Part shown: positions 900-17,141 of the stretch, in pieces
Layout: every line of letters begins with the position of its first letter
Position numbering within the stretch: the stretch's first letter is position 1
Source of the DNA: Ignavibacteriota bacterium
Lineage (GTDB): Bacteria > Bacteroidota > Ignavibacteria > SZUA-365
Assembly: GCA_016218045.1 (NCBI GenBank)
Contig: JACRFB010000045.1
Span: forward strand, 62,001 to 126,000
DNA: 64,000 nucleotides
Direction of reading: 5' to 3'
Position numbers and translations under genes: made by a program
The notes under the pieces: generated by a model
What the model was told of the DNA's origin: nothing
What the model saw: only the letters and a program-made list of their open reading frames with translations
Database searches by the model: none

Positions 900-2972
900 C
901 TACAAGACCTTCAGGACTCGCACGCAGGCGGTATGTGTGCGGATGAAATACATACCGGGGCGCCAGGAGGCCGTGGGGATGATGTGGCTGCCCTCGATAG
1001 TGCCGCGCCAGATTTCACGTGCCAGTGCGTCGGTGATGGACACGTCGCCGTGTACACCGTCGAGTGTGATGTGATCCGCGGCGGGATTGGGGTACACCGT
1101 GAAGCGGACAGGGCTGGACGGATCCTCCACTGCCGACACGGGCGGCAGCAGGGTGATCGGCGTCTGGGCATCAATCGAAAAGGCGTCACGTGTGTCGGAA
1201 GTCACCGTGAGCCGCACGGAATACACACCCGGCGCGAGGCCCGCGGTGTTCCACTCGCCGAGTGAGGCGTTGCGCGCTTCGCGGAACACCGTGTCCGCCA
1301 GCCGTGTCCACTGTGTTTCTCCCTGACGTTGATACGAGAGGACGTATTTCCGGAAATCGAACAGTGCGCTTATTGGTCCGCGATCGATCCACGCCGATCC
1401 GGTCACCGCGACGCGTTCTCCGACACGTGCCGAGGCGGCTGTGCCGATTTCCGCCAGCCAGGTGATGGAGCCCTCGTAGGGGACGGGCTCGCGCAGCAGA
1501 CCCGACTGCACCACGATGAGGATGGATGTGCCGATGGCGCTCGCCGCGCCGTTGCTCAGCGCCGAGTAGGCGAAGACCAGCGCGCCGCTGCGCTCGGAGC
1601 GCACGGGGCAGGTGGCCGACGAAAAACCGTACAGCAGAAACGAAGTATCGGAGGCGAACAGGTAGCCGCCCGAGCCGTCCACCATCACCTTTTCGCAGGT
1701 CATCCGCGACGCGCCGAATGTGCCGATCTCGCCGAGTATACAACCCGTGACGTGTACGACGGAGCGGTCGAACGTGTACAGACTCCAGGTGCTCACGCGT
1801 GTGTTTTCGAGCAGCAGCGTCCTGTCGACAAGCGGCGCGGGAAACTGCGTATATGTGCTGTTGTTCACCAGTCCGCTCACGGCCGTCGAGTCGGCGCCGG
1901 TGAACCAGAGGCCGATGGCCCGTATAGCGGAGTTGCCGATCCGAATATCCGAAGCGGGGGCGGGCATCAGCGCCCACATGACGTTTGTGCAGCGTCTGAG
2001 CGAGGCGGTGTAGTGGATGTTGGCGAGTCCCGGTGTGCCCGCGCCGAATGTGGCACTGTCCACCGCGGCACCGTCGGGGAAGGATGTGTGGAAGGTCTGA
2101 CCTGCCCCGACGCGGAACCACAGCAGCACCGTGTGCGCTTCGCGGAAATCGATACGTGTCTCGTCCTGCAGAATGAACTCGCCCGTCTCGTTGCAGGTGT
2201 CCACGGTCATGCTGCCGCGGCCCGAGAGTCCGCACGTGGTAAAGCCGCGCACTGTGACGGCGCGGTAGCGCACCGAGGCCGAGTCCGTGACGGCGAGCGA
2301 GTGCGACAGACTCCCGTAATCCAGCGTCGAGCGTTCGAACAGCGCGCTGCCTCCGCCGGCCACGATCATGGAGCGCTGATAGAAGTATTCCTGCGGGAAA
2401 AACAATGTGGAGTTCCGCACGACGAGCGCCGCCGATGTGCCCCACACCACCACATTCCCGTATATCGTACAGGAGGCGTTGTCGAAGATCAGCCGTCCCT
2501 GTCCGACAACGAGGATGGCGCCCGTGTGCTCCCACACCCCTGTGATACGCAGCGAGTCGCTGCCGGGACCGACGATGAGAGTGTCCCCCGGTGCAGCGAG
2601 CGTCCGCGCCTGCGGCAGCAACGGCGCGTGGGGGAGCAACCGCGTCGTATCCATTACTCTCGCCGCGTTGTCCACCCGCGACAGCCAGCCGCCGGACTTC
2701 ACCGACGCCAGCACACCTTCCAACCCACGCAGCGCGGCCAAACCGGACAGCGACGGTGCGTCCGTACCCCGCGTTTCCACGCTCGGATTCGTGTGCGACG
2801 GCGTACCGTGCAACAGCAGCGGGGAGGCGGGCAGGGAAGGATGTTGGAATTGGGGAGTGCCGGAGGCGGCACACATCGGCAGTAGGAGAAGAATTGCGAG
2901 GAGCAGGACGCCGCAGGACCAATCGTCCCGGTGTGATGTGGAGAAGGGGTGCCGACTATCGTCCGATCTCAT
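900..2972 (-). CDS. Large secreted protein with T9SS type A sorting domain, function unknown
   Basis: 690 aa from ATG 2972, chosen because it puts a basic stretch and hydrophobic core (CGVLLLAILLLLPMCAASG) at the N-terminus; the frame stays open 204 bases further upstream but that part lacks secretion character. The middle is a series of short beta-rich segments with many Ser/Thr/Gly, like right-handed beta-helix surface proteins, but no named domain is certain. The tail has the T9SS pattern: FTVYPNPAADHITL, then SITDALAREIW, then GMYFIRTH. It is expected to cross the outer membrane by the Por/T9SS machinery. The 5' end lies head-to-head with, and overlaps, the rightward gene at 2949. Confidence 0.82.
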   Translation of the reverse strand: MRSDDSRHPFSTSHRDDWSCGVLLLAILLLLPMCAASGTPQFQHPSLPASPLLLHGTPSHTNPSVETRGTDAPSLSGLAALRGLEGVLASVKSGGWLSRVDNAARVMDTTRLLPHAPLLPQARTLAAPGDTLIVGPGSDSLRITGVWEHTGAILVVGQGRLIFDNASCTIYGNVVVWGTSAALVVRNSTLFFPQEYFYQRSMIVAGGGSALFERSTLDYGSLSHSLAVTDSASVRYRAVTVRGFTTCGLSGRGSMTVDTCNETGEFILQDETRIDFREAHTVLLWFRVGAGQTFHTSFPDGAAVDSATFGAGTPGLANIHYTASLRRCTNVMWALMPAPASDIRIGNSAIRAIGLWFTGADSTAVSGLVNNSTYTQFPAPLVDRTLLLENTRVSTWSLYTFDRSVVHVTGCILGEIGTFGASRMTCEKVMVDGSGGYLFASDTSFLLYGFSSATCPVRSERSGALVFAYSALSNGAASAIGTSILIVVQSGLLREPVPYEGSITWLAEIGTAASARVGERVAVTGSAWIDRGPISALFDFRKYVLSYQRQGETQWTRLADTVFREARNASLGEWNTAGLAPGVYSVRLTVTSDTRDAFSIDAQTPITLLPPVSAVEDPSSPVRFTVYPNPAADHITLDGVHGDVSITDALAREIWRGTIEGSHIIPTASWRPGMYFIRTHTACVRVLKVL

Positions 2973-3440
2973 GCAAGATCCGTTTCGTGCGCGAGTGAGG
3001 AGGCGGGAGAACCGTGTGCCGCAAAGGTCGATGTTCCTTACTCGCGGATCAAGGGCGCCGCGGAAATCTCTGCCTCGGGCGCCGTGCGTTGCCAAAGGCG
3101 CCTCGTCGATGGCGAGCCGCGCGGCCGCACCTGCTGGTACCACGAGAACGGTCTTCTGAAGAACATCGTGCACCACACGGCCGTCCTCTCACGCAGCGAT
3201 TATTTCAGCTTCCGCGAGGGCGGTACCCTACGCGCGGGACTAGCCACCCCCTTAGACGACCACGCCGGCATTCTCTACCGCCACACCTACCCAGGCGGCC
3301 GCCCGCGCTGGGAGTTGGCGGTACGAAACGGCCGTCCCGACGGTGATGAACGCGTGTGGGATGAGGACGGCACGCTGCTGCGCCACGACATGTGGGACGA
3401 CGGATGGCTGCGCGAGGAGCGGGTGCGCATCTCTGAATAA
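2949..3440 (+). CDS. MORN/YwqK-like repeat protein
   Basis: 163 aa with repeats of the kind 'G..R.y.E.G....W' ending in 'DGDERVWDEDGTLLRHDMWDDG', the style of MORN_2 / YwqK 'antitoxin component' repeats. The protein-like part starts near residue 26; the first codons are low-complexity and overlap the start of the leftward gene by 24 bases, so the true start may be an internal GTG or another codon. No signal peptide is visible. YwqK-type proteins are named for a Bacillus toxin-antitoxin context, but no toxin is adjacent, so I give only a repeat-family assignment. Confidence 0.55.
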   Translation: MPTIVRSHARSVSCASEEAGEPCAAKVDVPYSRIKGAAEISASGAVRCQRRLVDGEPRGRTCWYHENGLLKNIVHHTAVLSRSDYFSFREGGTLRAGLATPLDDHAGILYRHTYPGGRPRWELAVRNGRPDGDERVWDEDGTLLRHDMWDDGWLREERVRISE

Positions 3441-3940
3441 CACAGGCTGTATGGATCATGGGAACCGGCAGAATGGAAATGTACGCGCGACTTTAATATG
3501 GAGTTGCGACTTTCATTTTGGGGTTTCGTCTTTTTCCCGCTGAGTCCGCAGAGTTTGCGCGTTCGCGAGCGCGACAAGCGTCGGGACGGCGTTCACACGG
3601 AGAGCGCTGCGGACTTGAAGACGAGCACGTCGGGCACGCGCGGGACGGCGTTCGCTCAATCATCTCGTGCCCGTGGGGAGAGAGAAGCCGAGACGAGGTT
3701 AACAGACGACTGTCGGTTTCCGGGATCGTGACCCAATGATCAACTGTCCCACGCGGGGCGGGACTGTTGATGATCGGGGCGCTGTCCCGCGAGGGCTGCG
3801 AACGGGCACCCACGTTGGCACGTTGCGCGCGCAGTCTGCCGGTCCCGCGTATGGCGCGAGTCGCGGGCAACGGCGCGCACGTCGGCCTGCCCTGCGCGCC
3901 GGGGGGTGGACCAGTAAGTCGGGAGAGTCGAATCTCATCC
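3441..3940. other. Non-coding left flank of the defence island
   Basis: 500 bases between the YwqK-like gene and the last island gene. No coding stretch has protein-like composition and I recognise no transposase remnant. The only clear structure is the imperfect inverted repeat at 3736-3774. The left island boundary probably lies in this interval, but I could not find a direct repeat matching the right side. Confidence 0.45.
3736..3774. repeat. Imperfect inverted repeat at left island flank
   Basis: CAACTGTCCC (3741-3750) pairs with GGGACTGTTG (3760-3769) except for one T:T position, around a 9-base loop. The arms extend outward to 3736 and 3774 with one further mismatch. No T run follows, so it is not a clean terminator. 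It could be a relic of a mobile-element end or a recombination site. Confidence 0.5.
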
Positions 3941-5167
3941 CTACTCGACGTGATATGCCTCGCTCAGCGCGCTGAGCGTGACGATCGCCGGGGCGGTTGC
4001 ATCCTCGGGATCGCGCGCTAGCGCGCCGTCAAGGACGCGCACGTGCGTCCCCGTCTTGAACTCCTTGGGGTGTTGGAGCCGCAGTAGCGCCGCCGTCTTC
4101 GCCGGTAGGTCACGCGCGCGCACGACCACCGCGTCCCAACTCGTCGGTCCGTGCCGCCCGGTGATCTTCAACTCGACATCCCCGAAGTGGCCGTCGTCCG
4201 AGACGACTTGCACGGCGTTTCCCCAGTACGAGTCGCAGAGCTGGCGCACACCGCAGTAGCGACACGACTCGGTGTTCGGGCGTGCCGAGGGAGGGCGCGC
4301 GGCCAGCGCGGCCTCCGCGGTCTGTCGGCGCTCAAAGAGCTCTCGACCTAGATCGTCGATCTCCGATGCACTCGGCGGGGGCACGTCAACGTCCTGGCTC
4401 TCGTACGCGAGCACGAGCCGCTTCACCACCCGACCTGACGGGTTCAGCTCGTCGTCGAGCCGCCACATCACCGCGTACACGCGGACCTGGAACTTGTGCG
4501 TCTCGTCGGCAGCCCCCGTCTTGAAGTCGGTGATCTCGCATGCGCCATCGTCGAGGACGAGGAGGTCGAGCTTCGCCTTCCACCCGATGCTCTTCGCGCG
4601 CACCTCAATCTCTGGGTACGTCCCGTTCAAGAGCGGGAGCCGTGGCGGCGGACTGCTCGACTTCGGCGACGACGGGGCGGTAGGGACCAGCACGCCCTTC
4701 GGCAACCGGAGGCGGCTCAGCATCGACTGCACGCGCGCGCGAAGCGCGGGCACTTGGCCGCGCAGGGTCCGCTGCGCGTGCTCCATCAGCACGCCCGCGC
4801 GCGGGTTGTCGACGAAGCGCTTGAGGAGACGCTTCACGCACTCCTCCACCACCCGCGTGTATCCGCCGAGTTCTCGTAGCACCTGCGGTGCGTTCGGATC
4901 ACCAATGGACGGCACGCCCGCGCTCGCGAGATGCTTCGTGATGATCTCGAGTGCTAAGTGGACGACGCTGCCAGCAAGCGCAGCGACCTGGAGCTTCGGC
5001 GGGTAACCGCGCCCGCTCCAAAGCTCAGGGTACTCAGCGGCGCTCAGCGCCCAGCGTCTCGGGCACTCCTCGATCTCCGCGTGCGTCGACACGCTCATCT
5101 CCGCGGGCGCAGCGGGCCATGTTGCCGGTGTGACGACGCGCCAGTGCGTATTCTCGTTCGCGCTCAC
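3941..5167 (-). CDS. Cas4/RecB-type PD-(D/E)XK nuclease with 4Fe-4S cysteines
   Basis: 408 aa, GTG start behind an AGGGGGA ribosome binding site, 11 bases after the helicase stop. All family landmarks are visible: C35 in 'EECPRRW', motif 'GSVVH' with H70, D201 in 'KLDLL', 'EITDFKTG' giving D214-x-K216, the Q227-x3-Y231 motif, and 'CRYCGVRQLC' (C302, C305, C311) completing a four-cysteine iron-sulfur set as in Cas4, AddB and Dna2. Residues 330-408 form an extra small beta-rich domain. By family it should cut or resect DNA ends. As the last gene of the Druantia-like operon it is probably an effector or end-processing partner. I do not recall such a nuclease in the described Druantia types, so its membership is inferred from gene packing. 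Confidence 0.85.
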   Translation of the reverse strand: MSANENTHWRVVTPATWPAAPAEMSVSTHAEIEECPRRWALSAAEYPELWSGRGYPPKLQVAALAGSVVHLALEIITKHLASAGVPSIGDPNAPQVLRELGGYTRVVEECVKRLLKRFVDNPRAGVLMEHAQRTLRGQVPALRARVQSMLSRLRLPKGVLVPTAPSSPKSSSPPPRLPLLNGTYPEIEVRAKSIGWKAKLDLLVLDDGACEITDFKTGAADETHKFQVRVYAVMWRLDDELNPSGRVVKRLVLAYESQDVDVPPPSASEIDDLGRELFERRQTAEAALAARPPSARPNTESCRYCGVRQLCDSYWGNAVQVVSDDGHFGDVELKITGRHGPTSWDAVVVRARDLPAKTAALLRLQHPKEFKTGTHVRVLDGALARDPEDATAPAIVTLSALSEAYHVE

Positions 5168-5178
5168 CGCGTCCCCCT

Positions 5179-8100
5179 TCAGCCGAGCTTCTCGATGAGC
5201 TTCCGGGTCGCGGCCGGCAGGTTGCGACGCACGATCAACTCGTCTTCGAGGAGAACGGCAAGCGAGGTCGCGTACTCCTTTACGTCCTTGAGCGCCACGT
5301 CAGTCGGCTCGTTGGGCGTCAGCGGACCGTGCAGTCCGATGGCGAACTGCGCGCCGCTCGCGTTGGTCACGAAGATCGGCGCGACGATGTCGCCAAGACC
5401 CACCACAGACACTCTCTTGTCGCGCTCGATCACGAGCCCCTCGATGCCTTGACGATCGAGATCCTGAAACAGAAGGTCAGTCGAACGCGCGACCCGGTCT
5501 GCCGTTAGCATGGGCGCCGCGTTATGCAGGACAAAGCGGAGCAGGCTCGCCCCAAGGTGACGATCGAGCAGGTCGTGCTCGAACTTGTTCTTGTAGCTAC
5601 GAAGGCACCGGTAGCAGGAGCGATCGCAGTTGTCGGGGCAACTCTCCAGGAACTTGAGCGCGTCCTCAAAGATCGTGAGCCCGATCTCCCCGACCCGTTT
5701 GGAGAACCCAGCGCCGCCGGGGAGCGTGTCGTAGAGATAGATCTCGGCTTCGAGGCCGTCACGCCCCTCTGGGCTGAGCGCCGGACGGTACTCGGCCTGA
5801 AGTTCGTTGGCCTCCAACTCCAGTCGCCCGCAAGCGGCCTTCGTCACCGCCTCGCAGATGGTGCGCAGCGCGACATCGGTGGCGAGCATACCTGGAACGA
5901 GCGTGAGCGGCGCGTCGACGCGTACCGCGATCAGGAGCACGTCCGTAATGAAGTCGGTCCCAAGGACCAGACCTTTTGTCGCACCGCCGCCTGGACACAT
6001 TGGCTCGCGTTGATCTGGGTAAGGCTTACTGTGCGCTGCGCCCACGATGCCCTTCGGGCTCGCGGTCGGCTCGATAAGCCCGCACTTCGTGCAGTAAGTG
6101 TAGCCCTCTTGCCGCGGGCCGCGGTTGGTGACGAGTAGGTGTTCGCGCATGTGATGCACACGCAGGCGATCGTTGAGCCGCGTCCACTGGGCGGCCTGCA
6201 TCGAGGCAGTGAGCTTCGCGCGCGTCGCGTAGCTCTTCGCAGGCATATCATCAGGGGATGTGCCTTCCTCCTTCGCCACTGGATGGGCAAAGCCCGGTGG
6301 ACGAAGCCACTGCGTCGCGGGACCGAACGTGCCTGCTTGCCCACATGCTGGGCAGTCCTTTCGCTCGCCGCGCCCGACACCTTCAAACGGCGTTGTCTGC
6401 GCGTAGTGGCAAATGCTGCACTCGAAGTAGAGACGTCGGCTCTGCCAAGCACGGTACCGGTCGTCTCTCATGGGGGAGTAGATCGCGCCCGAGGTCCAAA
6501 GCTTGTTGCCGATCCACACCTCCTTGCCTGGCCCGTATTGAGACAGCGCGGTCGGCAGGCCCTGTGACGGCGTGAACCTGAACGCGGGCCGATAGCCAGA
6601 TCGGTCTTGGTCAAACACGTGGAAGGTGGCGACGTCGGTCGGGAACGCGTACCGAGGGAGCACACCTTTGTAGAGGAGTCGATCGAGGAGGTTCTCGGAC
6701 GCTGGTCCGCGCACGGGTCTTTCTTCGCCTGCCTCCTCTGGCACCTCGACGACGGTGGCGTCTTCCGCGTCGTCATCGGGAGGAGAGGGCGCGCTCACCG
6801 CCGCTGGAGCAGATGGCGCGCCTGCAGGAGCCTCCAGTTCGATCGCGACGTCGATCGGCCTCAGCGTCTCCGGCACCAACTCGTCCAAGAGGCGCTTCCT
6901 CCCCGCCGCCGAGAACTGTTGCGGTAGCCACGTCTCGACCTCGGCCCGCAAGGACGCTTCGTTCGCCTTAAGCCACTTCTCCAGATCCCACCGGTTGAGC
7001 ACCTTCGCGGACTTCTTGAAGTCGGCCACGGTGCCGAGCACCGCGAAGAGGTGCGGCTGCTCCTCCGGTTTGATCGTGGGGAGCTTGTCCTGGTGGTAGC
7101 GCTGAAGCAGATACGCGGTGACGTGTCGGCGGATGATCTCGCTGTTGTCGAGCGTGAGGAGCGGGTCGTCGACGGGGCCTCGGATCATCTGGTCGGGGTT
7201 TGAGAAGTAGTGCTCGTCATGGCTATCCGCGCTGCCGAAAGCGGTGACCGTCGCAACGGCGTTCCCGCGACGACCGGCGCGACCGGCGCGCTGCTGATAG
7301 TTCGCGCGCGCTGGCGGCATGTTCCGTAGCGAAACTCCAGAGAGCGAGCCGATGTCGATACCAACCTCCATCGTGGTCGTGCATGACAGCACGTCGATCG
7401 CGGGTCGGTCATGACCAGTGCCATCAGCGCCGAGGTCTACGTCTTGGAATAGCAGTTCGTGCTCCTCTGCCTTCGAGAACACCTCGTCGGACTGGGCGGT
7501 GTTGAGCTGCGCGGTGTGCTCGGCCGCGATGAGCGCCATCGGCGCGGTCCCGTTTAGTGCCTCGACGGTGCTCGCGCGATAGTACCCTTTGCGGGCGACG
7601 AACACCTTGTCGGTGCTTGGATCAATCGGCGCCGCTGTTGGTTGACCGCAGTTGATGCACGTCGCGCGACCAGGGAGCGGTCGCTGCGCTGTCTTGCAAG
7701 ACTGGCAATAGGCCCAAGCGCCGCCGATGGAGAGCGAGAGCTCACCGCCCTTCAACCTATACTTGCCGGGGGCGATCTGCTCCGCGAACAACGCCAACAG
7801 CGTGGGGACCCAGTCCTGTTCGAACTGTTTCTTGGTCGCCTTGTCTACGAGGAGGTTGTTCAGGTCAGTGAACTTGCCGGAGGTCGGCTTCACGTCTTTC
7901 TTCCACCACGCGGGCGGCATCCTGCTGAGCCAGAATCCAGCACGGCGCCAACAGCGAAGCCAAGCCCGCCCAAGCGCGATCTTCTCGTCCGGCGTCTCGG
8001 CGACGCCGGGAATGTTGGGCAACGCGACGAGCTTCGCGGTGTGCTCCGCGCGTTCAACGATGGAGGCGAGTGCCAGCGCCTCAAGGCCGTAGTAACGATC

Positions 8101-10728
8101 GAGCAGCGAGGTCGTGATCGCCCTCAGCAGCGCCTCGGGGGGCGCGGAGCCACGAAGCCTCACAAGGAGTTGCAGGAGATCCGTATCCCGCGTGAGCGCG
8201 CCTGCGCGAACGGCCTCCTCCACGACGAGTTCGTCTTGAAAGGACTCCCCCAACTTCAACTCTGGACGCAGTCGAACGTGCATGTCCTTCGCCGAGATCA
8301 GGACGCTCAGGTAGAGGTCTTCGAGCGACAGCAGCGGGTTGACGATCGCCGCCCGCACTAGCCGATCGTAGCCCGCCACCATCAACGGTCGCATCGCGTC
8401 TTGGGTCGAGTACGTCTGGAGGTTCGGCGCGAGGCGCGCTGCCGTCTGACGTGAATCGGAGAAGATGAGGACCTTTCGGCCACGCAGCGGCGCGAGCCGC
8501 GTCGCCTCCACTGGGCTCGGTGGTTGCACCTGAATCTGCTTGGCGATGAGCGCCTGGAAGGGCTGATCGCCCTTCGTCTGGTGGTCTTGGACCGACGTCC
8601 GCCCGAAGGACGCGCTCTCGCCGCAGACGGCGCACGGACGAAACTCACCAGGGTTCTCGTCCTGCGGCTCCTCGTCCGTGACGGGCTGATTTCGAGTGGC
8701 CCGGATGTAGACTTTGCGGTTTCGCGCGCCGGTCTTCTGCGGGTTCAGGCGTCCGGTGACGAGATCGTAGTCGGCGGGTTCAGCGTGTTCGACGAACACC
8801 GGCTGCTCGAGGAGGAGATCAAGCGGAGAGATCGCGTCAACGACCCCCGCGAGCGTTCGAAACGCGCCGCCCGGCTCGGACCACAGGAAGTCTGGTTGGT
8901 CGATGTTATCCGTGTACGCGCGAGCGTGGGCGGTCCCGCAGTTTCGGCACGTAAACAACTCCAGCACGCGCGCGCCGCAGTCACATGAGTCACGCGGCTG
9001 GCTGAAGAGCTTGCCTGCTGGTCCGCCGCGCATGGCCGCCGGGAGGCTCGTGCAGTTCGGGTCCATGCAGACCCAGAGGCCCGCGAGGCCACGGTAGAAG
9101 GAATGGACTCGACAGGGCAGGAGGCCCGGCTCTGTCGGCTCCCTGCGCGCCACGCTGCCCAGCGCGATGAGGTTCGTTACGGCGCGCGAAGCGACGGCAG
9201 CCGGGACACCTTCCTCGAAGAGCCTCACGCCCAATTCATCGACCGGCTGCGCCTCAGTCATCGTCGCGTTGACGAGGCTCGACATTGGGCCGAACGACTC
9301 CAGCGCCTTGTAGAGTGAGGGTTGCAGATTCCACGGCGCTTGGACGCCGCGATACTTAAGGAAGCCCTCGATCACCTTGACGCGGTCAGCGTCGCTGGCT
9401 GCATCGTAGAATTCGTTGAGTTCGAAGGCATCCAACGCGGCGGCGTCGGCTGCCGTCCCCTTGGCTGCGCCGGGGCGTTCGAGAAGTTCGCCTTGTACCT
9501 TGCGAAAATCGTCAGGGTCCTTGCCGGTCAGCTGTGCGCCGAACTCGACCGCGTAGTCCGCGTCCTTGAAGCTGGCGCTCGTGCAGATGACCTGAAGTCG
9601 CTCTGGTGGAACGCCCAGTCGGGTGCGCAAGCGCCGAATCAGCAACGCGACCTCGGCGCCCTGTGCGCCGCGATAAAGGTGCGCCTCGTCGATAACCAGG
9701 AGGAACTTCTCGTCGGGGTTCTTCTCCAGCCACTCGCGCGTGTGATCGAAGATGGGGCGCTCGAGCGGGCGCATCAACATGTACTCTAGCATCGAGTAGT
9801 TCGTGACGAGGACGTCGGGCGGTGCCGCGTGGACCTCGTGACGGGTGATGAGTTCGGGGTCGCCGGGGAGCGTGACGCAGCGCTTGAACCGATCGTTCTT
9901 CTTGTCGAAGTAGTGGCCCGACCCGTACCACGTAGTGAGATCCGGTTTCGCCGGCCACTTGCCGCGCTTCTTCAACTCGGCTACGAGCTGTGCAGCGGCA
10001 TCACGCTGCGGTGACGGTTCCGCCCCAGCAGCGACCTCGAGGTTCTTCACATAGTACTTGCCGATCGGCTTGAGCCGATCTCCGTCCCGGTTCTTCTTCG
10101 GGTCCTTGTGGCGCACGCCCGGGTACAGTGTGCGGCTGGTGTAGCGCGCGAATCGCGCGGGCCGCCCTGACCAACCGTCGAAGCGTTGGACGATGCGTGG
10201 ATCGCCGAACAGCAGCCGGAGGCGTCCGAGTTGGTCGTTGACGAGCGCGTTCATCGGGTAGAGCACCAGCGCGCGTACCGCGCTAGTCTCTCCGAATGCC
10301 CCGCCCGTTGCCTTCGCCTCCTTGGCGAGCTTGCCGAGGATCGGGAGCAGGAAGCACTCGGTCTTTCCTGATCCGGTGCCGGTCATGACGACGAGGCTGC
10401 GACCATCGACGAGCGAGAGCTGCGTCGAGAGCGCTTGGTGCTGGTACGGCGGGTCGTGGAGCAGCAGTCCGAGGTCGCCATTCGGCGCCGAGACTGACGT
10501 GAAGATGTCGAGCGCAGCCTGCGGAAGGCCAAGCTCCGCGAACTTCATCCCGGCCTTGTATCGCGGCGTGCTCTCAAGGTACGGGCGCTGGTGGATGACG
10601 CCGACCTTGTCGAGCAGCGCGCCGCGCTGGTCGACGAGCGTCCAGTGGCTCACGTGGTACGCCGCCTCGATGTAATCGCGCAGGGCGCGGTGGAGCTGTT
10701 GGGTCGTCTCTCCGATCGTAAGTGCCAT
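5179..10728 (-). CDS. druE: DruE-like giant DEAH helicase with C-terminal DUF1998
   Basis: 1849 aa from ATG 10728 (AGGAAGA upstream), preferred over a more upstream in-frame codon that would overlap the previous gene. Order of parts: Walker A TGTGSGKTE (116-124), DEAH box 'VIDEAH' (347-350), 'CTSAS' motif III, cysteine-pair clusters between about 600 and 1070, helicase C half with 'TTTMEVGID' (about 1119) and 'RAGRAGRRG' (about 1150), another cysteine cluster, then DUF1998 with 'LYDTLPGGAG' and 'CDRSCYRCL' (about 1700). Very long SF2 helicases with DUF1998 are the shared core of Druantia (DruE); DISARM DrmA and DpdJ carry the same domain but are shorter as I recall. Placement next to a DUF4338 protein argues for DruE. 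Expected to be an ATP-driven DNA translocase or helicase. Confidence 0.83.
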   Translation of the reverse strand: MALTIGETTQQLHRALRDYIEAAYHVSHWTLVDQRGALLDKVGVIHQRPYLESTPRYKAGMKFAELGLPQAALDIFTSVSAPNGDLGLLLHDPPYQHQALSTQLSLVDGRSLVVMTGTGSGKTECFLLPILGKLAKEAKATGGAFGETSAVRALVLYPMNALVNDQLGRLRLLFGDPRIVQRFDGWSGRPARFARYTSRTLYPGVRHKDPKKNRDGDRLKPIGKYYVKNLEVAAGAEPSPQRDAAAQLVAELKKRGKWPAKPDLTTWYGSGHYFDKKNDRFKRCVTLPGDPELITRHEVHAAPPDVLVTNYSMLEYMLMRPLERPIFDHTREWLEKNPDEKFLLVIDEAHLYRGAQGAEVALLIRRLRTRLGVPPERLQVICTSASFKDADYAVEFGAQLTGKDPDDFRKVQGELLERPGAAKGTAADAAALDAFELNEFYDAASDADRVKVIEGFLKYRGVQAPWNLQPSLYKALESFGPMSSLVNATMTEAQPVDELGVRLFEEGVPAAVASRAVTNLIALGSVARREPTEPGLLPCRVHSFYRGLAGLWVCMDPNCTSLPAAMRGGPAGKLFSQPRDSCDCGARVLELFTCRNCGTAHARAYTDNIDQPDFLWSEPGGAFRTLAGVVDAISPLDLLLEQPVFVEHAEPADYDLVTGRLNPQKTGARNRKVYIRATRNQPVTDEEPQDENPGEFRPCAVCGESASFGRTSVQDHQTKGDQPFQALIAKQIQVQPPSPVEATRLAPLRGRKVLIFSDSRQTAARLAPNLQTYSTQDAMRPLMVAGYDRLVRAAIVNPLLSLEDLYLSVLISAKDMHVRLRPELKLGESFQDELVVEEAVRAGALTRDTDLLQLLVRLRGSAPPEALLRAITTSLLDRYYGLEALALASIVERAEHTAKLVALPNIPGVAETPDEKIALGRAWLRCWRRAGFWLSRMPPAWWKKDVKPTSGKFTDLNNLLVDKATKKQFEQDWVPTLLALFAEQIAPGKYRLKGGELSLSIGGAWAYCQSCKTAQRPLPGRATCINCGQPTAAPIDPSTDKVFVARKGYYRASTVEALNGTAPMALIAAEHTAQLNTAQSDEVFSKAEEHELLFQDVDLGADGTGHDRPAIDVLSCTTTMEVGIDIGSLSGVSLRNMPPARANYQQRAGRAGRRGNAVATVTAFGSADSHDEHYFSNPDQMIRGPVDDPLLTLDNSEIIRRHVTAYLLQRYHQDKLPTIKPEEQPHLFAVLGTVADFKKSAKVLNRWDLEKWLKANEASLRAEVETWLPQQFSAAGRKRLLDELVPETLRPIDVAIELEAPAGAPSAPAAVSAPSPPDDDAEDATVVEVPEEAGEERPVRGPASENLLDRLLYKGVLPRYAFPTDVATFHVFDQDRSGYRPAFRFTPSQGLPTALSQYGPGKEVWIGNKLWTSGAIYSPMRDDRYRAWQSRRLYFECSICHYAQTTPFEGVGRGERKDCPACGQAGTFGPATQWLRPPGFAHPVAKEEGTSPDDMPAKSYATRAKLTASMQAAQWTRLNDRLRVHHMREHLLVTNRGPRQEGYTYCTKCGLIEPTASPKGIVGAAHSKPYPDQREPMCPGGGATKGLVLGTDFITDVLLIAVRVDAPLTLVPGMLATDVALRTICEAVTKAACGRLELEANELQAEYRPALSPEGRDGLEAEIYLYDTLPGGAGFSKRVGEIGLTIFEDALKFLESCPDNCDRSCYRCLRSYKNKFEHDLLDRHLGASLLRFVLHNAAPMLTADRVARSTDLLFQDLDRQGIEGLVIERDKRVSVVGLGDIVAPIFVTNASGAQFAIGLHGPLTPNEPTDVALKDVKEYATSLAVLLEDELIVRRNLPAATRKLIEKLG

Positions 10729-10745: not shown

Positions 10746-11828
10746 CTACCGGGAACCTGTTGTCATCTCTTCCAGCCAGAGCGCGTGGCGCATGAACCGT
10801 CGCTCCTCGTCGATCTCCGCCCTCGGGATTCGGTAAGCAAAGAGGCTTCCCCTGCTCGGGACGGGCTCGCCGATGGCGTCCCATCGTCTACGGGCCCAAG
10901 CAGGCACCGGCGAGAAGAACTCGAGGACGACAGCTTCTCCGTTGTGGGTGACGCGAAAGCGCTGGGGCACGCCCCGCTGCGCGTCGATCGCCATCTGGAG
11001 GTGCCACGCCTCGTCGCACCCGCGCCACCGACTCCCGCGCTGCGGGAGGTCGATCATCCGCTCAGGTTGCCCGTTCGTCAGGTGGACGTAGCACCAGAGA
11101 TCGGCGCCGTAGGCCTGCTGCCGCCGCCCGACGAAGCGCCCACTTTGTGCCTTCGGCTTGACCCAACGCCCCCTGTAGTACCGGACGGGCTTCGTCGGGT
11201 CGAGCAGCAGGAGCCCGGGGATGTCCCTCGACGGCGGTACGACATCGAGGGCTTGGTCACTCGTAGCCACCGCCTGCGACGCAGTGCAGGGCTTCGGTCC
11301 CTTGAGCCACGCGTCGGCCGCGAGCTCGAGCAAGCCGAGCTGGCGGAGTTCGCCGCGAAGGTCTTCGGTCGGCGACGACGGGATCAGCCGGCGGACGTGC
11401 CCGAGGTACTCGATACGCCGCTCTAACTCTGAGGGCAGCGGTGAGAGTTGGTCGGCGGCGATGCCGAGGAGGACCACGAGACCACTCTGACGGACGACGA
11501 AGCTCGCGGGCGCGGCGTAAAGCAGTAGGCGCGCCGTCGGCATTCCGTCTTGTAACTCGGGCTGCTCGAGGATGTCGCCGTGTGAGATCATTGCCTCGAG
11601 CGTCTCCACGACGAGTTCCTTTGCATTCTGGAGGTCTGGCACCAGGCCCCGCAGCGGACGCACGACGGCGCGCAAGAGCGTCGCCGCAGAGCACGGACAC
11701 AGGTAGCTCGCAGCCCGACGCAGCGCGCCTGCGAGACCCTCCGGCGTCGTCAGGTCGAGCGTCTCCGGATCGAGCCCCAGTTCGCGGATCTTCTGCGCGT
11801 GTACCTCCTCAGCGGTGAGGCGCCTCAT
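10746..11828 (-). CDS. Unknown 360-aa protein of the Druantia-like operon
   Basis: Start set at ATG 11828, whose ATGA overlaps the stop of the upstream gene, a mark of translational coupling; five further codons upstream are possible. The helicase gene follows after 17 bases. I recognise no domain. The N-terminal 140 residues look helical with a possible winged-helix-like stretch (around 'AKELVVETLEAMISHGDIL'), and residues 200-360 are beta-rich with several Trp and basic residues. No transmembrane segment or signal peptide. It could match one of the small Druantia proteins, or a DNA-binding adaptor for the helicase; neither is shown by sequence. Confidence 0.75.
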   Translation of the reverse strand: MRRLTAEEVHAQKIRELGLDPETLDLTTPEGLAGALRRAASYLCPCSAATLLRAVVRPLRGLVPDLQNAKELVVETLEAMISHGDILEQPELQDGMPTARLLLYAAPASFVVRQSGLVVLLGIAADQLSPLPSELERRIEYLGHVRRLIPSSPTEDLRGELRQLGLLELAADAWLKGPKPCTASQAVATSDQALDVVPPSRDIPGLLLLDPTKPVRYYRGRWVKPKAQSGRFVGRRQQAYGADLWCYVHLTNGQPERMIDLPQRGSRWRGCDEAWHLQMAIDAQRGVPQRFRVTHNGEAVVLEFFSPVPAWARRRWDAIGEPVPSRGSLFAYRIPRAEIDEERRFMRHALWLEEMTTGSR

Positions 11829-14731
11829 GCTGACCACCCCCATCCCGCGTAGGTCTCGTCCGCTACGGTCCGTGACTCGAGGTGGCGATCCGTGGCAATG
11901 ACCAAGAACCTGGCAGCTCTTGCAAGAATGGGCACTTCATCGAGTAGCATTCGGATTGCTGGTTTCAGGTCGTGCCTCGCCCTCAGAATGGCCGGATGGC
12001 CGGGTCTGCTGGCGATGCGCAGCGCTAGCTCAGCAAGCCGCTGGGCCTCGTAAGGTGCGGCAGGAACTTGAATGCGAAAGCTGTGAGCTAGCTCCACAAG
12101 GCGCTTCACCCGTGCCTCGATGTCGGAAGTGGCCAACTCGGCGGCCTCAAGAAAAATGGCTGCGGCTATGCCCCGCTGATCAGCGCGGCTCGAAACAGCG
12201 TCCTTTAGAACTGAGATATCTCTAGCTGTACTGGATCCTAGTGCTCTTTCCGCACGTGCCCATTGTTCGCCGCCGAGCAGGGAAACAATGTGGCCAGAAA
12301 ATGCTTGAAGGACGCACCGTCGTTTGTGCGAAGAAAGTATGTCTCCAGAGGATCTGGCCATCTCCCACAGATGGGCATACTCGAGTGCCACAACTACTGC
12401 GTCAGCGGAGCGTGCAATGCCTTCGATTTGTGGGGTAGCCCCGAGATCTGCAAAGTTTCGGATTGTTCTAGGCACTGCGAGGAGGCCCGCAGTGACGCCG
12501 TCGCGTCGTGCCATGAATAGACCGCCCGGTGCTTCAACTGGGAATTCAGGCAGGGGCGACAACTGAACGCGCTTAGTCGGCTGTTCGAAACTGAAGAACA
12601 GAACCTCTGGCTCCCCCGCTGCACCGCTATCATCAACGAGTCGTGCGTTGACACTATCGCCGTGCCGACGGAGTACCCAGCGCAGCGGCTCAAACGCCCT
12701 CTCGCATTCAAGGGTGAACACCCCTAACTCGCTAGCGGCAAAAATGAGGCGACACAGTCGTGCATCGTCGTACCGTCGCTGTACTTGCTTGTTCTCGCGA
12801 AAATACCGCGCGAAGTGGGTTCTCCACTGCGTGGGTAGCAGCGGCAGCGGCATGGGAGGAATTGACACCTCGAGGACTGGGTCGGCACCTGCTCTTTCAA
12901 AGAGTGATAAAACGCACTCGATGCTACGGCCGGTTGGGCCTCGGAGTTCAATATCGACCTTACCCTCCCAGAGTTGTTCGAGTGAGGGCGCGATGGGATC
13001 CAACGACATTTCAAGCGGGCCGTGCGCGGTGGCCCCGGGCGACCAGGGGCGCGCCTCGCGGACCCGCATGACGACGTCCAGGTCGCCGATGACTTCGGAG
13101 TCTGCATCGCTCCCACTACGCGCAGCAACGCTGAATTTGTGGAGCCCGACGGGGAGAGGCGGAAGTTCGACGAAGATCGGCGTACCGGCCGGCGTACCGG
13201 TCAGCAGCAGGGATAGCGACGGGCCTTCTCGCATCGCGATGGTGAGTTCATCGATCGTGTGGTCTGAGCGGATCGCGAGTGTCGGCGTCTCCGATGCGAG
13301 CCACTCGCCATATCCCTCGCCGTCCCATGAGACCGCCGCGAGGCCAGCGGGCCACACCTCGATCGACTTCGCCTGGGTGACCTGGAACTGCTTCAGTGCC
13401 TGCTCCCACTCCGACGTGAGTGCGGCTGGCATGTCGATGAGCACAGCGTGTACCCCTTGGCACGTAAGTTCGACCGGGCGTGCTACGGGTGAGCGGGAAA
13501 ATGGCTCGGTGCTCACAATCAGGTATTTCGAGTCCGCACGCACGCGCAATCCGCGAGACTCGTAGGCAAGGCCATCACTGGCGACCTTGAAGAGCCACGA
13601 AGTGCCAGGACGGAGCATGCACTCAGCGCGTAGGAGGTACTCGAGTTGCGCGTCGGTGTGCTCGAACTTCAGCAGTACATCGTCGGGCCGGGGCCAGCGG
13701 CTGAGCGTGACGCGTAGGGGACCGTGCACGCAGCGCCCCCTCGCGAGCGGGCGCCCCGCCGCGCCCGCGACGGTACATCGCGAATCCGTGAGAATCTCTC
13801 GCACCTGCGGGAAGCGGAGGAGCAGGTGCGAGAGGTCTGGGATTTCGAGCGAGATTTCCCAGCGTGATTTCTCGATGGGTCGCAGTAAGAGGCGCGGCTC
13901 GATGCCGAGTCGTACGACCTCTTCTCGGGCCTCCTCACGTCGCCGGAACGTGGTGTTCGTTGTCCTGCCGATGGTCAGCCCTCGGATCTTCGCCCGCTCC
14001 TCGGCCGCTCGGCGTGCGCCGCGCAGCCAGTCGCGACCACGACGCTCGCGGTCGACGTCATCGCCGATACGCTTAAGCGTCATAGGGTGGAGCAGCGTCT
14101 TGAAGCCCTCCTTCCCCTGGAGGAGGAGCGCGGCGGCGATCTGACCGACGAGCGCCGGCGCCTGCACGAGGTTCTGGAAGCGCGCCGACGCGTTCCAACT
14201 CCGCGCCGCGATGAAGTCCCCTAGGCGCTGCGGCTCGTCGAAGAGTTCGCCAGAGAACGAGTGCCGAAGTTCGTAGAGGATGCGCGCGAGTTGCTGTTGC
14301 AGGTCGCACGGGAGGATTGCGTGCGTGATAGGCCACGCAATGATCGAGAACTGCTCCGCCCACGGGCCAGACGGCTTGGCACCCGCGAACTTCCTCTGGA
14401 AGTCGTCAAAGGCATCCCGAATCCAGTTGCGCTTGCCGTTCAACGTCCAACCTGGCGTCTTATCCTCGAAGGTCTGCCAGTACTCATTCCCCGCGTAGCC
14501 GTAACCGAGTTCGGTAGCGTAAACTATCCAAGGGAGAGTGTGATCGTTGGAAGGCGCGTAATTTGCGATGTGAGTTCGTACACTATTCGCTAGTGCCTGT
14601 AACTCAGTGGTTTCGAGCCCGTGTTCGAGTGCGAAAATGGGTGTGCTTCCACCAGCGCCATTTCGTTGTGAAGCGAGGTCCTGAAAATGAGCAGTGAGGT
14701 GCTGCTGCCAGTGAGAGAGATCGCTGTTCAT
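11825..14731 (-). CDS. Unknown 968-aa protein of the Druantia-like operon
   Basis: The ATG at 14731 directly follows the TAG of the druA-like gene (no spacer), so the two are co-translated. I recognise no enzyme motif, Walker box or cysteine cluster. The first 250 residues are helix-rich and aromatic; the middle (about 290-560) alternates beta strands with charged loops, and the C-terminal third is helical. It sits where type I Druantia has DruB/DruC and is similar in size to the uncharacterised type III DruH as I remember it, but I cannot claim homology. The 3' third of the gene is visibly more AT-rich than the middle. Confidence 0.8.
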   Translation of the reverse strand: MNSDLSHWQQHLTAHFQDLASQRNGAGGSTPIFALEHGLETTELQALANSVRTHIANYAPSNDHTLPWIVYATELGYGYAGNEYWQTFEDKTPGWTLNGKRNWIRDAFDDFQRKFAGAKPSGPWAEQFSIIAWPITHAILPCDLQQQLARILYELRHSFSGELFDEPQRLGDFIAARSWNASARFQNLVQAPALVGQIAAALLLQGKEGFKTLLHPMTLKRIGDDVDRERRGRDWLRGARRAAEERAKIRGLTIGRTTNTTFRRREEAREEVVRLGIEPRLLLRPIEKSRWEISLEIPDLSHLLLRFPQVREILTDSRCTVAGAAGRPLARGRCVHGPLRVTLSRWPRPDDVLLKFEHTDAQLEYLLRAECMLRPGTSWLFKVASDGLAYESRGLRVRADSKYLIVSTEPFSRSPVARPVELTCQGVHAVLIDMPAALTSEWEQALKQFQVTQAKSIEVWPAGLAAVSWDGEGYGEWLASETPTLAIRSDHTIDELTIAMREGPSLSLLLTGTPAGTPIFVELPPLPVGLHKFSVAARSGSDADSEVIGDLDVVMRVREARPWSPGATAHGPLEMSLDPIAPSLEQLWEGKVDIELRGPTGRSIECVLSLFERAGADPVLEVSIPPMPLPLLPTQWRTHFARYFRENKQVQRRYDDARLCRLIFAASELGVFTLECERAFEPLRWVLRRHGDSVNARLVDDSGAAGEPEVLFFSFEQPTKRVQLSPLPEFPVEAPGGLFMARRDGVTAGLLAVPRTIRNFADLGATPQIEGIARSADAVVVALEYAHLWEMARSSGDILSSHKRRCVLQAFSGHIVSLLGGEQWARAERALGSSTARDISVLKDAVSSRADQRGIAAAIFLEAAELATSDIEARVKRLVELAHSFRIQVPAAPYEAQRLAELALRIASRPGHPAILRARHDLKPAIRMLLDEVPILARAARFLVIATDRHLESRTVADETYAGWGWSA

Positions 14732-15925
14732 CTACCATGCAGGCCCTGGTCCACCATTCTGCAAGCACTCAATGATGCGCTTTCGTGCAAATCTCGTATA
14801 CCGCTTATCACGTTCCGCCCTAGGCAACACCCAGCGCTCGAGGCAGAACGTCACTATGTCACCAAGGGGGAGCGTCATTGAACGGACATTCCGATGCTGG
14901 CCGAGCAGTATCTCACGCCAATTTCTCGCAAGCGGGACAGCATATACCTCTCGCTCAATCCCGTGCTTGAGTACCGCATTGCCGTCAATACCAATTGCTT
15001 CAAGCGCCGTCCGCGCGACCCGAATCTTCCAGTTAGGCCCCATACCAAATCTGTGTCCGGATGCGTATGGATGGCCGATCTCTTCGAGATAGCTACGTAA
15101 TGAGTCGAATACATGACCTGAGAGATGAAAATGCCCGAAACCCTTTGTTGCGCCGATGCGTACAAAGCGAGGGCCATCAGGGATGTTGAGCCGGTTGTAG
15201 ATTGACGACCGCCCAAGCGCAGAGGTTGTTGTCAGGAGAACTAATCTGGCTCGGTGCTCATTGCCACTGATCACAGCTTCGCGCCCAAGATACTTGCGGT
15301 CATAAGCAGCCTTGACTTCGTCGCTACCCATCGTCGCAGCCACGAGTTTGCCACCAAGCAGGAAGGAATACGGAGGCATTGCTCCAACAACGTATGCATC
15401 CATCACATGAACTAGGCGTTCACTCCGGTCTTTGTGGGTCCACCCAACCCATGTGTCTCGTGCGGAGAGATTGAAGACCGGATCTCCCAGCGCGAAAAGG
15501 CCGATCAGGCAACCATTCTGGCGATCACGCACGAGAAACCGTAGTCGCCTGCCAAAGCCTTGTGAAACAGGAACAGACCAAAGTAGGCATGCGAGTCGGA
15601 ACAACCGAGCCTCGGGTGTCCCAGAACTGACTTCTACTAGTTCTGGGTCGATTGCCGCTGGATCCACTTGGCGGCCTGTTGCAAAAGAATCGATCAACCC
15701 TGCGGCGTAGGTCTCTACGAAGGCCTGGTTCTGTTGAAGGACGTCTTTGCGATGGGCGGAGTGAAGGTCGCGGATGCGCTGCTTTGATACATCTCCTTCT
15801 AGGAAGTAGCCAGTACAGTTCTTTGAAAAGCCAAGGCCTAACAAGTGTTCATCAACTTCCCGCTGCAGGGCTATAGCCTTCTCTCCGGCCTTTTCAGACC
15901 AGCTCTCTTTTGTTTTTTCGCTCAT
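14732..15925 (-). CDS. druA: DruA-like DUF4338 anti-phage protein
   Basis: 397 aa from ATG 15925; a TTG codon 42 bases upstream extends the frame but neither start has a strong ribosome binding site. The central block is the DUF4338 signature: 'RLRFLVRDRQNG..IGL', 'LGDPVFNLSARDTWVGW' and 'VMDAYVVGAMPPYSFLLGGK' (about residues 127-193). DUF4338 is the DruA family of type I Druantia; its biochemical role is not settled as far as I recall. It is the first gene of the operon and precedes the 968-aa gene with zero spacing. Codon choice and base composition are more AT-rich than the chromosome on either side, in line with horizontal transfer. Confidence 0.8.
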   Translation of the reverse strand: MSEKTKESWSEKAGEKAIALQREVDEHLLGLGFSKNCTGYFLEGDVSKQRIRDLHSAHRKDVLQQNQAFVETYAAGLIDSFATGRQVDPAAIDPELVEVSSGTPEARLFRLACLLWSVPVSQGFGRRLRFLVRDRQNGCLIGLFALGDPVFNLSARDTWVGWTHKDRSERLVHVMDAYVVGAMPPYSFLLGGKLVAATMGSDEVKAAYDRKYLGREAVISGNEHRARLVLLTTTSALGRSSIYNRLNIPDGPRFVRIGATKGFGHFHLSGHVFDSLRSYLEEIGHPYASGHRFGMGPNWKIRVARTALEAIGIDGNAVLKHGIEREVYAVPLARNWREILLGQHRNVRSMTLPLGDIVTFCLERWVLPRAERDKRYTRFARKRIIECLQNGGPGPAW

Positions 15926-16159
15926 TGTCGAGGTGTCACAAACACATGGTGCCTTTTCTTTGGACAAAGTCGGATGGGGGCCAATAATTGAATCTCATGA
16001 GAGTGTTTTTTATAAGGTCCACCTACACATTCTGATTTGTACGCCCATTAGATTCGGGTTTATCCGACCAACATTGCCGGGATTATCGCTAAAACATTCG
16101 GAGCGACACGGCGAAACACGTATAACATATGTTGGTGGACGGATTAACGCAAAGTCTAG
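15926..16159. other. AT-rich upstream region of the defence operon
   Basis: The leader and promoter of the leftward operon must lie here. The stretch is clearly AT-richer than the surroundings. It holds the palindrome AACATATGTT (16124-16133) and TCTCATGAGA (15993-16002). No canonical -35/-10 pair or TAnnTTTG box stands out on the minus strand, so I do not name a promoter. Confidence 0.4.
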
Positions 16160-16351
16160 GGCCTTCGAGACTACCACAACGGCAAAGAGCTGCGGGAAGG
16201 GCTCGAATGGTACCTGACGTTTTACAACACCAAGCGCAAGCATCAGGCGCTTGGCTACCGGACGCCACACGAGGCGTTTCTGGAGCGGCTGCTCCCAACA
16301 TCCTGAGCCCGCCTGGGCCGTTTGGGGGCACCGCGGGCCGGTCTCATGAGA
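15993..16351. repeat. Pair of identical 10-bp palindromes flanking the transposase remnant
   Basis: TCTCATGAGA occurs at 15993-16002 and again at 16342-16351, one on each side of the IS3 remnant. Because the word is palindromic it can be read as direct or inverted copies. It may be an operator, an old target-site relic or chance; flanking bases match only weakly. Confidence 0.35.
16160..16306 (+). pseudogene. IS3-family transposase (OrfB/integrase core) C-terminal remnant
   Basis: After an in-frame TAG at 16157, 48 codons read GLRDYHNGKELREGLEWY, then LTFYNTKRKHQALGYRTP, then HEAFLERLLPTS and a stop at 16304. 'FYN..R.HQALGYRTP' is the standard end of the DDE integrase domain of IS3-group transposases (the last catalytic Glu lies before this segment). 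All upstream catalytic parts are missing, so it cannot be active. It marks past mobile-element activity at the right edge of the defence island. Confidence 0.88.
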
Positions 16352-16623: not shown

Positions 16624-16699
<76 letters not shown>

Positions 16700-16796
16700 G
16701 GGGTCAATATGCGAAAGCAGGGGATTTTTTCCAAATGGACTGGCGGTCGTGGAACTGCGTTTTCAGGCAACAGCGCTCTGTGCGCTGTGTCTTGTG

Positions 16797-17141
16797 CACG
16801 AATCGAATCCAGCACGAGGCACGAATCGAATCCAACGAGAGGCACGAATCGAATCCACCACGATGCACGAATCGAATCCAACGGGAGTCAGGAATCGAAT
16901 CCACCACGAGGCATGAATCGAATTCAACACGAGGCATGAATCGAATCCAACGGGAGGCAGGAATCGAATCCACCACGAGGCACGAATCGAATCCAACGAG
17001 AGGCACGAATCGAATCCACCACGAAGCACAAATCGATTCCAACAAGAGGCACGAATCGAATCGACCACGAGGCACGAATCGAATCCAACGAGAAGCACGA
17101 ATCGAATCCAACAAGAGGCACGAATCGATTCCAGCGTGAGA
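16797..17141. repeat. 23-bp tandem repeat array, 15 copies
   Basis: Units are a conserved 14-mer (cacgaatcgaatcc) followed by a 9-mer that mostly alternates between two types, near AACGAGAGG and ACCACGAGG, giving a 46-bp higher-order period. Copies 6, 11, 12 and 15 carry point changes in the core. The period is not a multiple of three and no real gene covers it. The 'spacers' recur, so it is not a CRISPR array. It lies between the tRNA and the promoter region of the 1347-aa surface protein gene. Confidence 0.95.

Follow-up and report, generated by a model that had tools for sequence, protein, structure and literature searches.

The question raised by this locus is what two adjacent proteins of 968 and 360 aa, encoded in the core of a putative defence operon of an Ignavibacteriota bacterium (GCA_016218045.1, contig JACRFB010000045.1), are and what they might contribute to immunity. 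The window, that is, the whole stretch of DNA analysed, comprises 64,000 nt (positions 62,001-126,000 of the contig). An earlier note, made from this DNA, had listed both proteins as unrecognised, which holds for the larger one (hereafter X), as it has zero matches in Pfam, PADLOC, and NCBIfam, but not for the smaller one, which matches DruD1.

Operon layout and identity of the 360-aa protein

The window contains a compact minus-strand operon with the order DruA-X-DruD-DruE, followed by a Cas4/AddB-like nuclease gene (Table 1). Of the families that mark membership of Druantia type I, DruA (DUF4338), DruD, and DruE1 (PDLC00013, 1930 bits) are present, and these PADLOC and Pfam matches bear out the previous reading of the region as a defence operon of the Druantia kind. 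The DrmA/DrmB pair of DISARM was not found in the operon, where the helicase is DruE1 and cross-matches to DrmA are only weak.

Table 1. Features of the X-containing operon (coordinates are those of the window)
Feature	Coordinates	Strand	Evidence
DruA (DUF4338), short form, 411 aa ORF, probable start ATG 15925	14732..15967	-	PF14236 E 2.2e-86; PADLOC DruA1 E 1.2e-138
Protein X, 968 aa, core component without library model, in DruB+DruC position	11825..14731	-	No family match; 77/80 loci; AF2 pLDDT 87.8
X residues 1-275, predicted helical N-terminal domain	13907..14731	-	AF2 model; common to SNF2-partner family
X residues 280-770, predicted Ig/FnIII-like beta-domain array	12422..13894	-	AF2 model; fold searches
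X residues 776-954, predicted helical C-terminal domain	11870..12406	-	AF2 model
X residues ~590-968, apparent exchanged/hypervariable cassette	11828..12964	-	Sharp DNA-identity drop at codon ~590
DruD, 360 aa, N-terminal part winged-helix-like	10746..11828	-	PADLOC DruD1 E 2.5e-118; AF2 pLDDT 94.3; weak winged-helix matches
DruE1, YprA-family helicase (DEAD, Helicase_C, MZB), 1849 aa	5179..10728	-	PADLOC DruE1 E 0, 1930 bits; Pfam
PD-(D/E)XK Cas4/AddB-like Fe-S nuclease (P0005), 408 aa, optional	3941..5167	-	PF12705 E 1.5e-18; DruK/Cas4-like; conserved catalytic and Fe-S residues; after DruE in 22/80 loci

Both ORFs are present on the minus strand where the earlier note had placed them, and the translational coupling that it described is seen in the DNA: DruA and X meet with zero gap in a TAG-ATG junction (...GCATGGTAG directly followed by ATGAACAGC), and the ends of X and DruD overlap in an ATGA motif (...TCAGC ATGA GG). 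The length of 360 aa for DruD is counted from the ATG at 11828, and the ORF as called mechanically begins at 11843 and has 365 aa. Because the closest homologues of DruE begin there, its start is most likely at 10728, which is residue 53 of a 1901-aa ORF.

Full-length matches to PADLOC DruD1 (PDLC00010, E 2.5e-118; PDLC00012, E 1e-106) assign the 360-aa protein to a described defence family, so that it is, on profile evidence, DruD and already represented in defence libraries, an outcome that the earlier note had itself named as refuting its claim and that does so for this protein; nothing significant was detected for it in Pfam or NCBIfam. It is only distantly related to DruD of Escherichia coli and other canonical loci (hhalign probability 35%, E 4e-4; no match with phmmer). 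Its structure was predicted with confidence (AF2 pLDDT 94.3). A fold search against solved structures returned no whole-protein match, and the N-terminal part weakly resembles winged-helix DNA-binding domains (Foldseek probability 0.66-0.87, E > 0.1). Sequence searches of the PDB with DruD and X gave only Ig-type and designed-repeat noise, and no close relatives of either protein were found in the viral contigs searched.

Several observations concern the surroundings of the operon. A tRNA-Lys(CTT) gene lies just upstream of it (window 16624-16699), with an apparent IS3-type transposase remnant, recognised by eye, between this gene and DruA (about 16130-16300). A minisatellite with ~23-bp units (GCACGAATCGAATCCA...) lies next to the tRNA gene, at 16773-16998. 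Integration of the operon at the tRNA-Lys gene via flanking direct repeats (att-like) was considered, and no such repeats were among those listed. Across loci L008-L087, two forms of DruA accompany one X-DruD-DruE core, namely a short form (~410 aa) upstream and a long form (~670 aa) downstream, often on the opposite strand.

Conservation, predicted architecture, and tail of protein X

By scanning 84,980 genomes for DruD, 90 relatives were identified, and 80 loci distributed over 12 phyla were kept. X is encoded immediately upstream of DruD in 77 of them; two of the other three start at DruD on a contig end, leaving one real exception (L053). Considering that the X-DruD order, with its small gaps or overlaps, is kept in these 77 fetched loci, the two ORFs are not chance frames. 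Sampling by DruD might have forced the association between the two proteins, a worry that is answered in part by one locus in the window's own phylum that was recovered with the X profile alone and reads DruA-X-DruD-DruE. The system is rare in this phylum (2 of 395 genomes), as expected for a mobile defence system. Ten diverse homologues of X gave nothing convincing against PADLOC and Pfam either; thus, judged from sequence comparison, X is a real and conserved core component without a model in the searched libraries (Pfam, PADLOC, and NCBIfam). No paper describing the X variant was found in a literature search, and the supplementary tables of the original Druantia study may list it unnamed. 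One locus, in Mycobacterium sp. E2733 (L071), carries two X genes (2181-5318 and 7092-10001; 31-48% identical by segment) with a single DruD/DruE set, and it is possible that the second serves as a spare specificity subunit.

Structure prediction and a fold search of X, which the earlier note had proposed, were carried out. In the AlphaFold2 model (pLDDT 87.8, pTM 0.51), the individual domains are confident and their mutual placement is not, with low-confidence linkers at residues 249-263 and 561-570. The fold search returned mostly Ig, FnIII, and macroglobulin/antibody-type beta arrays with low TM-scores, so that the Ig/FnIII-like fold class predicted for the middle of X is supported and a specific structural relative is not. 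Many invariant residues are located in the N-terminal domain (E36, H37, G76, Y77, W85, and W95; E74 is nearly invariant), and the invariant residues of X are dominated by aromatic residues, Gly, and Pro.

The most variable part of X is its C-terminal tail. We compared the window with its closest relatives, found in Allochromatium (L009), Halotalea (L010), Desulfobulbus (L008), and Polyangiaceae (L016), to which DruD is 82-87% and DruE 78-81% identical and X only 61-66%. By segment, X is 82-91% identical to these relatives over residues 121-590 and 34-43% over 591-968; for the closest, L009, the values are 90% (121-600) and 38% (601-968). At the DNA level, identity drops abruptly at codon ~590, with a second drop upstream of codon ~70. 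Synonymous divergence (dS) between window and L009 is 0.34 in the middle (121-600) and saturated or >2 in the tail (601-968), which rules out faster amino-acid evolution alone for this pair; since synonymous sites are saturated only in the tail, this segment appears to have been replaced. Informative sites point the same way: over codons 71-590, the window groups with L009 rather than L022 at 167 sites to 11, whereas after codon 590 it groups with L022 rather than L009 at 102 to 27 (Fisher p 2e-42 for the two regions). Because the window's tail thus sides with another lineage, the tail of X is, on this evidence, an exchangeable cassette in the group formed by the window, L008, L009, L010, and L016, a claim that does not extend to the family as a whole. 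Within the group, L008 and L009 are also ~90% identical up to residue 590 and differ in their tails; in most other close pairs, the tail evolves only moderately faster than the core.

Over 35 loci, the tail is the fastest part measured, with a mean pairwise distance of 0.67 compared with 0.55 for the X core and 0.37 for DruE. Its distance tracks that of DruD once the DruE signal is removed (partial r 0.53). The sharing of both a short DruA and a tail between the window and L022 had suggested that the cassette moves together with DruA, an idea that was rejected after a partial correlation of -0.13 over the 35 loci.

Relation of X to known defence families

The operon resembles Druantia type I (DruA-DruB-DruC-DruD-DruE) in its DruA, DruD, and DruE families, gene order, and compactness, and differs from it in lacking DruB and DruC, in carrying X instead, and in the added Cas4-like nuclease. 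In canonical type I loci of E. coli (L093) and Pseudomonas putida (L088), DruB and DruC occupy the position of X. Neither was detected in the window operon with PADLOC or in related X loci with DruB and DruC queries, and in a tree (branch support values not inspected) the DruE proteins of X-type loci form a clade separate from canonical DruE. The earlier note had proposed profile comparisons of its unnamed proteins with DruB, DruC, DruH, and STY4851-type proteins; when these were run, X showed no relation to DruB or DruC at accepted thresholds (hhalign probability 0.4% and 0.1%, respectively, each against a profile of two sequences). Considering that DruB and DruC are absent and that X resembles neither by profile, DruA-X-DruD-DruE plus nuclease is best classified, from its sequences, as a variant of Druantia type I with X in place of DruB and DruC. 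The alternative that this is a plain canonical type I operon, with X as a diverged DruB-DruC fusion, would fit the position of X and its length (968 aa against 548+627 aa in E. coli). However, the profile comparison speaks against such a fusion strongly enough for us to reject it, X loci yield nothing to DruB or DruC queries, DruC is coiled-coil-like, unlike X, and X is related to another family instead (see below), so that we consider this reading highly improbable.

That family accompanies SNF2 helicases. The N-terminal third of X aligns (tblastn) with large plasmid-encoded proteins of Rhizobium, Leisingera, and Azospirillum, with 27-30% identity to the Rhizobium and Leisingera proteins over the N-terminal 260-313 residues (BLASTP). 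Profile-profile alignment with the SNF2-partner family covers about 745 columns with an hhalign probability of 100% (E 7e-43), by which X is homologous to these proteins over most of its length; PADLOC lacks a model for them too. In the Rhizobium and Leisingera loci, a gene for an SNF2-type helicase comes after the X-like gene. The SNF2 partners (L005, L007, and L006/L090, in DISARM-like and Druantia-like settings) adjoin YprA-family defence helicases, as X does, but those of L005 and L006 are paired with an SNF2 helicase, none of which was seen in X operons. The Rhizobium locus encodes DISARM DrmA (E 3e-205) and DrmB (E 4.5e-84), and in the Leisingera locus a long DruA occurs together with a DruE-like helicase and a DruD-like protein. 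On the Rhizobium and Azospirillum plasmids (L005 and L007), the X-like protein lies beside UvrD and NERD helicases, which in L005 sit with the DrmA/DrmB homologues and the SNF2-type helicase. On a plasmid of Leisingera sp. S132 (L090, 7207-27009), the long DruA, DruE-like helicase, and DruD-like protein are joined by a NERD protein and a divergent pair of SNF2 and X-like genes.

A further comparison concerns DruH (STY4851/ECs_5259) of Druantia type III, the only partner protein of a Druantia helicase to have been characterised. It has Ig-like domains, diverges more than DruE does, and has been proposed as the phage sensor, a case called indirect by its own authors (PMC13192584, preprint). The same preprint reports that DruH is a dimer-dependent nuclease and that DruE of Druantia III acts on ssDNA-containing DNA. 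Like DruH, X is one large partner of a DruE helicase, has predicted Ig-like domains, and is highly divergent; type III, unlike the X operon, lacks DruA and DruD. X has zero match to PADLOC DruH, so that the pairing of DruH with DruE that marks type III is not found here, and full-profile comparison gave no accepted homology with DruH/STY4851-type proteins (probability 0.7%). Restricted to the N-terminal domains, the alignment of X and DruH is in register and outscores 40 shuffled controls, at a probability of only 5.9%. Homology between the two is thus not established, and the N-domain likeness is kept as a lead. Considering that X has the same broad features as DruH, it most likely acts in the manner of DruH, as a variable recognition or activation subunit on a conserved helicase core.

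Possible role of X in Druantia immunity

In type I systems, DruE is predicted to carry an inactive nuclease domain at its C-terminus (PMC12458937). In the nuclease encoded after DruE in the window (P0005; PF12705, E 1.5e-18), H70, D201, D214-x-K216, and C35/C302/C305/C311 are conserved among 22 sequences. It shares the family domain and the conserved catalytic and Fe-S residues of DruK and Cas4 PD-(D/E)XK nucleases, but scores weakly on DruK models and is here an optional add-on. With the DruE nuclease predicted inactive and these residues intact, it is the best candidate for the DNA cutter of the window locus. Since only 22 of the 80 loci carry it directly after DruE (the other 58 lack it there, some being cut by contig ends), the core would have to be able to cut or block DNA on its own.

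Gene content, conservation, absence of DruB and DruC, predicted architecture, cassette exchange, and the relation to SNF2 partners were computed; all functional steps of X, DruD, DruE, and the nuclease given below are ones that we infer. Our preferred reading, which we hold at about even confidence, is that in this type I variant X is the recognition/activation subunit and would act like DruH of Druantia III. Its helical N-terminal domain and first Ig-like domains would anchor X to DruD and/or DruE, the shared machinery, and its C-terminal third would be a swappable cassette sensing a phage trigger, either a protein or a DNA state. DruD, with its winged-helix-like N-terminal part, may be a DNA-contacting adaptor; DruE would translocate along the targeted DNA and unwind it; and the Cas4/AddB-like nuclease, where present, would degrade or cut the DNA in lieu of the C-terminal nuclease of DruE, which is predicted to be inactive.

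Two other roles for X have to be weighed against that of a recognition subunit. X might be a structural scaffold replacing DruB and DruC, which holds DruE on DNA and joins DruD and DruA and whose tail varies to dodge phage-encoded inhibitors. Its position in the operon, the frequent use of Ig-like arrays as scaffolds, and the correlation of tail distance with DruD distance are consistent with this role, but by sequence X is related to neither DruB nor DruC and replacement of a whole cassette seems more than evasion of inhibitors requires, and we regard the scaffold as rather unlikely. X might also be an enzyme itself, cutting or remodelling DNA in the core system; the DruH precedent (PMC13192584) and the lack of an extra nuclease directly after DruE in most X loci argue for such an activity, yet no catalytic motif is evident among the invariant residues and fold searches returned no convincing match to an enzyme active-site domain, which makes an enzymatic X more unlikely still.

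Beyond the recognition role in this operon, a wider and more tentative possibility, which we put well short of even, is that X represents an undescribed phage-recognition family with exchangeable C-terminal cassettes that serves both Druantia and DISARM-like YprA-helicase immunity, with DruH as a remote cousin, and thus forms a shared, re-targetable sensor layer. Current libraries label DruA, DruD, and DruE and have no model for X, the second-largest core protein, which occurs in at least 12 phyla, so that X-type operons may be called incomplete or 'other'. No described trigger for Druantia type I was found in the literature search; if X is a sensor, the natural cassette swaps would provide ready-made pairs for probing what this system recognises. 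X also ties Druantia to DISARM-like loci via a component other than the helicase.
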